DNA of 64,000 nt. It comes from Hymenobacter daecheongensis DSM 21074 (GTDB lineage: Bacteria; Bacteroidota; Bacteroidia; Cytophagales; Hymenobacteraceae). The DNA lies in NCBI RefSeq assembly GCF_900141805.1, contig NZ_FQYN01000006.1, forward strand, positions 62,001-126,000, written 5' to 3'. The notes below the pieces were generated by a model. It was not told where the DNA came from. It saw only the letters and a list, made by a program, of their open reading frames with translations, and did no database searches. Of the stretch, positions 55,116 to 56,586 are shown one piece after another. Position 1 is the first letter of the stretch. Every line of letters begins with the position of its first letter. The translations under genes were made by a program, and so were the position numbers.

Positions 55116-55143
55116 TTGGCGTTGGAATATTTTTCTACCTTTG
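55116..55143 (+). promoter_or_regulatory. Promoter of the TAC-like operon
   Basis: TTG at 55116-55118, a 17-nt spacer and an exact TACCTTTG at 55136-55143 form a good Bacteroidota promoter. The box ends 13 nt before the first start codon. A small palindrome (CTTAAnnnTTAAG, about 55145-55157) overlaps the start region and could be the antitoxin operator. Confidence 0.6.
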
Positions 55144-55156
55144 ACTTAACTTTTAA

Positions 55157-55663
55157 GTGAAGATTACGGTTGAAGTCGTATGGTTTGCCGAGGGGCTGAA
55201 AGCTCGTTTATACTCTGTTCGGTTGCCTGGGCAGACTGCTCCGGAGACAGTACGGTTCTTCAACCGCATGTCTGCTCACCCGAGCTATGAGTCTGATACC
55301 CGATTCGCCAGTGCTTTGCGAACCTTGCTCGATTGGCTGGATCGAATTATCCGGCTGGAAGGGGCGTTGCTGCGCTTCTTTCGGCCGGGCGAAGGCCAGG
55401 GCCATGCGCTGCCTATAGATAAAGGTCCGCTGCGCCTGTACTGCTACCGGCTCGATGATCGAAACTTATTGGTTTGTGGCGGTGGAATCAAAGCAAGTCA
55501 GACGGTGCAGGAAAGTCCGGATTGTCTGCCTCACTTCAACTTGATGAATTGCGTAGTAAAGGCGTTGCGCCGACGGCATATCGGCCCGGAACGGCTGCCA
55601 CAAGATGCTTCTCAGGCTTACTTACTTGAAATTGAAATTCCTGACGATGAACACCCTGGCTGA
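55157..55663 (+). CDS. Candidate toxin of a toxin-antitoxin-chaperone-like operon
   Basis: 168 residues starting at GTG (55157). There are no membrane helices. The middle, KGPLRLYCYRLDDRNLLVCG followed by GGIKASQTVQE, resembles the core strands of HigB/RelE/Gp49-like proteins, and the ends are charged. I cannot identify catalytic residues, so toxin activity is inferred mainly from context. The next gene is a 135-residue XRE-type helix-turn-helix protein that overlaps it by 17 nt, and a SecB-like gene overlaps that one. The order toxin, antitoxin, chaperone is the order in known TAC operons. It has its own promoter and no relation to ettA, which ends 65 nt upstream. Confidence 0.6.
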   Translation: MKITVEVVWFAEGLKARLYSVRLPGQTAPETVRFFNRMSAHPSYESDTRFASALRTLLDWLDRIIRLEGALLRFFRPGEGQGHALPIDKGPLRLYCYRLDDRNLLVCGGGIKASQTVQESPDCLPHFNLMNCVVKALRRRHIGPERLPQDASQAYLLEIEIPDDEHPG

Positions 55664-56054
55664 TTTACTCGCCCAAACTGCTCCCCGCGAAGAGGAAAAG
55701 CGTTTCGTGGACAAATCCATGCAACTATCCGGTCTTATCTCGGCGGCTATGCAGCGGCAAAGGCTAACGCAGAAAGCATTGGCTGATTTGTTGGGTAAGA
55801 AAGAGTCGGAGGTGAGTCGTTGGCTGAGCGGGCTGCACAACTTTACCCTCAAGACATTGACCCGCCTAGAGGCCGTGTTAGGTGAGGATCTGGTGCTGGC
55901 CTTCCGCGACCAGGCGGCCGCTCCAGCCGTTATCGCCCCGGCCAAAGCCCAGTGGGCCGAATCGGGCAACGACTGGCAAGCAGCGCAACAAGGCAAAAGC
56001 CGGAGCCAGGCCAGCGGGCCCGAGGAACTCTATTCACTTACCCAGGCGGCATAA
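55647..56054 (+). CDS. XRE-type helix-turn-helix antitoxin candidate with C-terminal tail
   Basis: 135 residues. The HTH (about 32-85) includes RQRLTQKALADLLGKKESEV and SRWLSGLHNFTLKTLTRLEA, a clear Cro/C1-type DNA-binding domain. After it comes a tail of about 45 residues, low in order and with isolated aromatics (AKAQWAESGNDW and EELYSLTQAA). In TAC systems such a tail (chaperone addiction region) makes the antitoxin dependent on the SecB-like chaperone; the resemblance is in layout, not in a proven motif. It overlaps the upstream gene by 17 nt and the downstream gene by one base (TAATG), so translation is coupled. Confidence 0.8.
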   Translation: MNTLADLLAQTAPREEEKRFVDKSMQLSGLISAAMQRQRLTQKALADLLGKKESEVSRWLSGLHNFTLKTLTRLEAVLGEDLVLAFRDQAAAPAVIAPAKAQWAESGNDWQAAQQGKSRSQASGPEELYSLTQAA

Positions 56055-56530
56055 TGGCGAATTCCTCTGAAGCGGCAACCGCTCCAAAATTTGTGGCCGA
56101 TGCGCTGACAGTATGCAAAGTGCAGGTGCTCCATCTGTCGCTAGATGATACGCTACCGCCCCTGGCCGGCAGCAGTCAGTACGCCTTTAAGTCAGAAGCG
56201 GATATTCTGTTTAATGCGCTGGAAGCCGACCAGCTACGGGTAGATGTGCATACAACCATTATGGTACGCGCGAAAACCCGGCCAGCCGGAGCCGGTAAGA
56301 TGCGCGTACGGGCGCAACTAGCGGTGGTGTTCCGCTACCAGGGGTTGGATAATTTGCGCCAAACGGGCAAGCTGCCGCTGCCGCTGGCCTGGACGGCGGT
56401 CAGCTTGGCCTATTCTACCATGCGGGGGCAGTTGCAGGCCCGACTGGCCGGTACATCTTTCGGAGAAGCCTGCTTGCCCGTCGTAAGCCCGCAACAACTG
56501 TGGCAGCCCCCCGCGCTTGCGGCGGAGTAG
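56054..56530 (+). CDS. SecB-like chaperone candidate, third gene of the operon
   Basis: 158 residues. It has a SecB-like order of parts. An N-terminal strand pair is TVCKVQVLHLSLDDTLPP. Beta strands with alternating hydrophobics follow (LRVDVHTTIMV, VRAQLAVVFRYQG). A C-terminal helix and turn, AYSTMRGQLQARLAGTSF then CLPVVSP, matches the ARG...G..P.LNL.P.N pattern that ends SecB proteins. It has no signal or membrane helix. Its ATG overlaps the antitoxin stop codon. The similarity is remote, so structure prediction is needed for certainty, but position and fold pattern agree with TAC chaperones. Confidence 0.6.
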   Translation: MANSSEAATAPKFVADALTVCKVQVLHLSLDDTLPPLAGSSQYAFKSEADILFNALEADQLRVDVHTTIMVRAKTRPAGAGKMRVRAQLAVVFRYQGLDNLRQTGKLPLPLAWTAVSLAYSTMRGQLQARLAGTSFGEACLPVVSPQQLWQPPALAAE

Positions 56531-56544
56531 TCCGTCTTTTTTCC

Positions 56545-56586
56545 AGCACAAGCGCCACCGGAAAGCATTCTGGTGGCGCTTGTGCT
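56545..56586 (+). terminator. Hairpin after the TAC-like operon
   Basis: A perfect 15-bp stem (56545-56559 with 56572-56586) with a 12-nt loop lies 15 nt after the last stop codon. No T-run follows, so termination may be weak or need Rho; it may instead protect the 3' end. Confidence 0.65.

Follow-up and report, generated by a model that had tools for sequence, protein, structure and literature searches.

Gene Organization and Regulatory Features

The window analyzed here is a 64,000-nucleotide stretch of the Hymenobacter daecheongensis DSM 21074 genome. Near one end, it carries three same-strand reading frames, referred to below as T, A, and C, together with several putative regulatory elements (Table 1). 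T and A overlap by 17 nt and A and C by 1 nt. A first-pass annotation, made from the DNA letters, had described this arrangement, and both the open reading frames and the pattern of selection agree with it. The trio locus of Hymenobacter jeollabukensis (L010) served as the reference for selection and conservation. The proteins of the two loci share 82% (T), 72% (A), and 70% (C) amino acid identity, and dN/dS is 0.09 for T and for A. For the C gene, dS is saturated, and third codon positions account for 93 of the 159 differences. L010 also has the GTG start of T. The three overlapping frames are real genes under purifying selection and are usually kept as a trio.

Table 1. Features of the three-gene locus, in window coordinates.
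Feature	Position	Strand	Description
TAnnTTTG box, TACCTTTG, putative Bacteroidota-type -7 promoter element	55136-55143	+	Also in L010
Inverted repeat ACTTAA-CTT-TTAAGT, putative antitoxin operator	55144-55158	unstranded	6-bp arms, 3-nt spacer; follows TAnnTTTG box and overlaps GTG start
Putative toxin gene (T)	55157-55663	+	GTG start, 168 aa; predicted RelE/HigB fold with added N-terminal strand; PDC-M64 model match
Putative antitoxin gene (A)	55647-56054	+	ATG start, 135 aa; HTH_3 and 52-residue C-terminal tail
Putative chaperone gene (C)	56054-56530	+	ATG start, 158 aa; predicted SecB fold; PDC-M64C model match
Hairpin, possible terminator	56545-56586	unstranded	15 perfect bp; no T run on its 3' side

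The sequence TAnnTTTG, which we take to be the consensus of the Bacteroidota -7 box, fits the element preceding T, and the window holds 25 such boxes when both strands are counted. A sigma-70 scan was uninformative, finding two sites against 0.9 expected and none upstream of the T start. The promoter proposed earlier for the trio is a putative Bacteroidota-type box and has no sigma-70 site to support it. The inverted repeat behind the box is identical to that of L010 at 14 of 15 bases, and most other intergenic DNA has diverged. The 15-bp hairpin reported earlier downstream of the trio forms without a mismatch. It is absent from L010, and terminator-like sites between 54000 and 57500 occur at chance level (four found, 3.5 expected).

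Predicted Folds of the Putative Toxin and Chaperone

Pfam and NCBIfam assign only HTH families to the trio. T belongs to no Pfam family and does not reach the PF05973 cut-off, and C has no Pfam match and stays below the PF02556 cut-off. Across the family, Pfam gave scattered single matches for 44 toxins (the best being AIPR_N, E 0.0015, in one member) and, for 33 chaperones, one SecB match at E 0.053 with the rest weak and scattered. PDB searches with the T and C family profiles returned five chance-level rows at most and no solved RelE or SecB structure. Since sequence-only searches gave nothing usable, predicted folds were needed.

The model of T was built from six sequences (pLDDT 85.8, pTM 0.83). 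Its best Foldseek match is HigB of Streptococcus pneumoniae (6af4; probability 1.00, E only 0.013), and VIA-align superimposes the two over 110 residues (Z 8.7, rmsd 3.4). The toxin of the mycobacterial toxin-antitoxin-chaperone (TAC) system, HigB1 (7nbu), aligns over 109 residues (Z 7.4, rmsd 3.9). Toxin-antitoxin proteins, judged by title, make up 44 of the 50 matches listed by VIA-align for this fold. The predicted fold of T is that of RelE/HigB, which bears out the original suggestion of a HigB/RelE-like protein. In a small set of ORFs, the T family profile also matches Gp49 (PF05973) toxins, four of them at E 2e-7 to 9e-7 and one more at 2e-5; places of this kind score 6e-6 to 5e-4 with an earlier T profile in whole-genome searches.

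Active-site residues of HigB1 include R77, K95, E66, R68, and N73 (PMC9098466, partial text). R93 and K112 of T are invariant in 44 aligned rows and may correspond to R77 and K95, while counterparts of E66, R68, and N73 were not recognized by eye. The unrecognized counterparts, along with ParE structures among the fold matches of T, would suit a poison of DNA gyrase, or a toxin with some other target, better than an mRNA endonuclease. However, the HigB folds are closer (Z 8.7 and 7.4 versus 6.0 for ParE, with steps of about 1 near the limit of a tie), and both the profile link to Gp49 toxins and the two invariant residues point away from ParE. We regard a ParE-like activity or another target as quite unlikely and continue with T as a candidate mRNA endonuclease.

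The model of C was built from three sequences (mean pLDDT 67, pTM 0.68) and consists of four strands and a long helix. Foldseek returned a probability of 1.00, and its best 19 PDB rows all belong to SecB or SecB-like proteins, among them mycobacterial Rv1957 bound to its antitoxin peptide (the Rv1957/ChAD complex). VIA-align places the model on the SecB fold with Z 10.6 and rmsd 3.3 over 132 aligned residues. As first proposed, the predicted fold of C is that of SecB. The third genes of the sister trios L014, L019, and L021 (as L085, L086, and L091) pass the Pfam SecB cut-off, and the C family profile matches two Pfam-SecB proteins in a small ORF set (E 6e-11 and 2e-6). No further SecB was found in the window's own genome.

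The Antitoxin Tail Varies with the Chaperone

The window antitoxin contains HTH_3 at residues 33-82, followed by a 52-residue tail that ends in SLTQAA. The antitoxins of known TAC systems come to need the chaperone through a C-terminal extension (PMC5105189, partial text). The Hymenobacter tail is a putative chaperone-addiction region with a ClpXP-like tag. ClpX and ClpP are both encoded in the genome.

Family searches covered Bacteroidota. Third genes of the SecB-like kind were detected in 54 of the 69 usable loci, among them the window, but not in the other 15. Failure of the three genes to stay together in other genomes, which the first-pass annotation had named as evidence against its reading, did not occur. 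Tails of at least 30 residues, a limit set after the lengths were seen, are found in 54/54 loci with the SecB-like gene versus 4/15 without it. The four exceptions are L018, L044, L049, and L056. By eye, the tails of L044 and L049 resemble that of the three-gene locus L051 over the first ~14 residues and are unrelated beyond that point.

These tail counts, like the end-residue counts below, include near relatives, and only a test of independent pairs on the toxin tree allows for kinship. Among ten such pairs, tail and chaperone change together in eight and in opposite directions in none, with no difference in two (median p 0.008). On this tree, made by a quick method, the chaperone label must change 13 times, and well supported branches force 10 of these changes. 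The label is not clustered on the tree beyond chance (180 of 500 shuffles were as low); frequent gain and loss could explain this, but so could third genes that escaped detection. Gains and losses of the tail tend to coincide with those of the chaperone.

Antitoxin ends follow a similar division. A C-terminus of the form [AVL][AGS] occurs in 35/54 antitoxins with a chaperone and 3/15 without, compared with 1/66 toxins and 0/52 chaperones; such ends resemble the ClpXP tag of the TAC antitoxin CmdA. A last residue of A, G, or S is found in 43/54 and 7/15 antitoxins, respectively, and in 16/66 toxins and 9/52 chaperones. Because seven of the 15 chaperone-less antitoxins also end this way, the looser measure separates the groups poorly. 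The possibility that A/G/S ends arise as an artefact of gene overlap was ruled out: they occur in 18/22 antitoxins that do not overlap the next gene and 23/30 that do, a check on 52 of the 54 rows (the window and L084 were left out).

The 69 usable loci exclude those at contig ends (L043, L046, L070), one with no antitoxin found (L068), one with a cut antitoxin (L078), five entries with an interrupted toxin (L041, L058, L073, L074, and L080, of which L041 and L080 are one place), a copy of L024 (L042), and repeats of one place (L001, L009, L011, L012, L059, L060). L014 and L021 were scored as chaperone-positive by their Pfam SecB match rather than by the profile.

The RelE/HigB and SecB folds, the co-variation of tail and chaperone, and the [AVL][AGS] ends together point to a type II TAC operon whose toxin and chaperone escape Pfam, a reading to which we assign a probability of about 0.86. 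The 15 loci of the family in which no SecB-like gene was detected would fit a plain two-gene HigBA module, with an unrelated beta-rich protein encoded behind it by chance in the window. Such a coincidence is highly improbable given that the third gene has a predicted SecB fold, occupies the same place in the large majority of loci, and tracks the antitoxin tail in its presence. If the trio is a TAC operon, the evolution of chaperone addiction can be tested directly in close relatives that differ in having the chaperone and the tail (for example, L020 and L076 versus L025 and L084).

Distribution of the Family

At E <= 0.001, toxin homologues were found in 8 of 99 related genomes, counting the window's own, and in 68 of 395 genomes of a phylum sample, where some weak rows are Gp49 toxins or a possible sister family. 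At E <= 1e-9, they were found in 24 of 395 genomes of a class sample. An ABC-F gene precedes the trio in both the window and L010. A search of 25 other genomes yielded 24 further ABC-F loci from the same genus, and blastn detected no trio-like DNA within ~1.5 kb downstream of them (less in one). Thus, the trio is patchily held.

Plasmid records contain two toxin matches, one on the H. swuensis plasmid pHsw1 and the other in Bacteroides. In both copies, the annotation reads hypothetical protein, HTH regulator, and hypothetical protein, the third gene of the Bacteroides copy being known from annotation alone. The toxin had no match in phage records. Among predicted phage contigs, one three-gene copy (L084) adjoins a terminase gene, and chaperone-less copies lie in seven others, six of them mutually close (L083 and L119-L124; L124 has a truncated toxin frame). 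L119 (3998-5035) encodes a 98-aa tailless antitoxin and no chaperone, with a DUF2442 gene next; L120-L124 are similar.

Remoter toxin relatives of 175-200 aa sit beside HTH genes in L104-L115 and may form a sister family. Three of these were scanned, with no Pfam match better than E 0.02.

Restriction and BREX Genes beside the Trio

Genomic context was examined in 47 loci that have a toxin, a SecB-like gene, and longer flanks (L151-L190 and L204-L210). Four of them, with an interrupted toxin or no intact antitoxin (L204, L205, L206, L210), enter this count and not the tail count. The neighbor search covered relatives of 20 proteins. A same-strand restriction or BREX gene lies at most 300 nt upstream of the toxin in 14 of the 47 loci. 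PADLOC models identified the upstream gene in nine (L152, L153, L155, L157, L159, L161, L162, L163, L170), and similarity to PADLOC-named proteins alone did so in five (L156, L181, L187, L188, L206). Removing L152 and L153, which were picked for such a flank, and the near-copy L156 leaves 11 of 44, with other near relatives kept. In three loci, the trio stands between two defence genes, namely HsdS and HsdR (L152), type III Mod and Res (L153), and BrxC and PglX (L162). In L161, it follows BrxL.

In small control sets searched for relatives of the same 20 proteins, no defence gene lay within 300 nt upstream at any of eight two-gene loci or three Gp49 loci. A Fisher test gave p 0.053, but its 13 controls included L199 and L203, in which no toxin was found, so that significance is not established. 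The window trio itself has no adjoining defence gene among those searched for. Support for the phage-defence link suggested earlier is contextual and comes from some relatives within or beside restriction and BREX operons, not from the neighbors of the window copy.

L152 (4090-11093) is a type I restriction operon with the order HsdM-HsdS-T-A-C-HsdR on one strand, in which the borders of the trio measure 71 and 3 nt.

A Possible Shutdown Switch against Phages

In known TAC systems, phage proteins can act as triggers. The antitoxin CmdA, which has LAA at its C-terminus, falls to ClpP degradation once the T4 capsid protein takes its chaperone (PMC11618068, partial text), and the major tail protein of lambda sets off a HigBAC TAC (PMC11980606, partial text). 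The Hymenobacter trio is probably a self-shutdown switch against phages. T would be a ribosome-dependent mRNA endonuclease, and A would neutralize it and use the inverted repeat that overlaps the start codon to repress the operon. Because of its tail, A would depend on C, which would hide the ClpXP-type C-terminal tag. The likeliest way to lose C would be its diversion by a phage structural protein or another unfolded protein. ClpXP would then destroy A, T would be freed, and translation would stop.

Alternatively, phage defence may not be the main use of the TAC, which would then act mainly as a sensor of stress or protein export or as a selfish addiction module carried by mobile DNA. The window copy, which follows a conserved ABC-F gene and has no neighboring defence gene among those searched for, would suit such a role, and so would relatives on plasmids and in predicted phage contigs. 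We consider it unlikely, though a serious contender, because a quarter of the context loci, after removal of the selected and near-copy cases, have a closely spaced same-strand restriction or BREX gene upstream, three have defence genes on both sides, and PADLOC includes the trio among its defence candidates.

A wider reading concerns the family as a whole. The Bacteroidota RelE-fold TAC family might form a second line of defence embedded in restriction-modification and BREX operons, with at least ten gains or losses of the chaperone, most of them accompanied by a change in the tail; we put this forward tentatively, at somewhat under even odds. A phage that defeated the first system would produce proteins that draw off the chaperone, the antitoxin would be degraded, and translation would be stopped.

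Relation to Known Systems

TAC systems with HigB, HicA, or MqsR toxins, as well as CmdTAC, are established (PMC5105189, PMC11980606, PMC11618068, all partial texts). The mycobacterial TAC (HigB1-HigA1-SecB-TA, Rv1955-Rv1957) has the same gene order (T-A-C), a RelE-fold toxin, an HTH antitoxin with a C-terminal extension, and a SecB-fold chaperone. Its structures are among the best fold matches of the window proteins (7nbu and 7awk for T, 5mtw for C). However, the sequence profiles of the Hymenobacter family, which belongs to Bacteroidota, do not find it. In addition, the Hymenobacter toxin differs from HigB1 in its predicted extra N-terminal strand and in having fewer recognizable active-site residues.

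The E. coli CmdTAC system (PD-T4-9) appears to share the T-A-C logic, a SecB-like chaperone, and a ClpXP-type antitoxin end, which is LAA there and QAA here (PMC11618068, partial text). Unlike the Hymenobacter toxin with its predicted RelE fold, CmdT is an ADP-ribosyltransferase. PD-T4-9 models match none of the three window proteins; the HTH protein has a weak PD-Lambda-2 match. Two Bacteroidota loci, L087 (888-2136) and L088 (888-2114), carry a small gene, a SecB-like PD-T4-9_C gene, and then a CmdT-like PD-T4-9_A gene. They are CmdTAC relatives in which the toxin comes last.

Another close counterpart is PDC-M64 of PADLOC-DB 2.0, whose models match all three window proteins (E 4e-23, 5e-24, and 6e-7) and two proteins of L010. 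PDC-M64 was entered as a phage-defence candidate with no description or mechanism, and not as a TAC. The open-licence literature searched does not name PDC-M64. Nor does it describe the trio, which is weak evidence of absence, and the partial texts of PMC4257090, PMC5105189, PMC11980606, PMC11618068, PMC4361572, PMC9098466, and PMC10440598 contain no description of it. The earlier view of a new TAC type should be toned down, since the trio was already in PADLOC-DB, though not as a TAC. What is new here is the TAC identification, the repeated gain or loss of a chaperone in one toxin family, and the occurrence of trios beside and inside restriction and BREX operons. If these readings are right, PDC-M64, an unexplained defence candidate, gains a concrete and testable mechanism, and strongly diverged RelE-type TAC systems are added to Bacteroidota.

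Two-gene Gp49/HigB toxin-antitoxin systems (PF05973) are related in that the T profile reaches Gp49 toxins beside HTH genes. They differ in the neighboring HTH proteins, which in L096-L102 are short (91-98 aa).

Two other loci resemble TAC systems of different kinds. L089 (694-1929) has a small gene that is toxin-like by eye, an HTH gene whose product ends in PNAA, and a Pfam-SecB gene, and is a probable TAC of another type. In L093 (497-1809), genes that are HicA/HicB-like by eye precede a weak SecB match (18.5 bits, below the cut-off), possibly representing a HicAB-type TAC in Bacteroidota.
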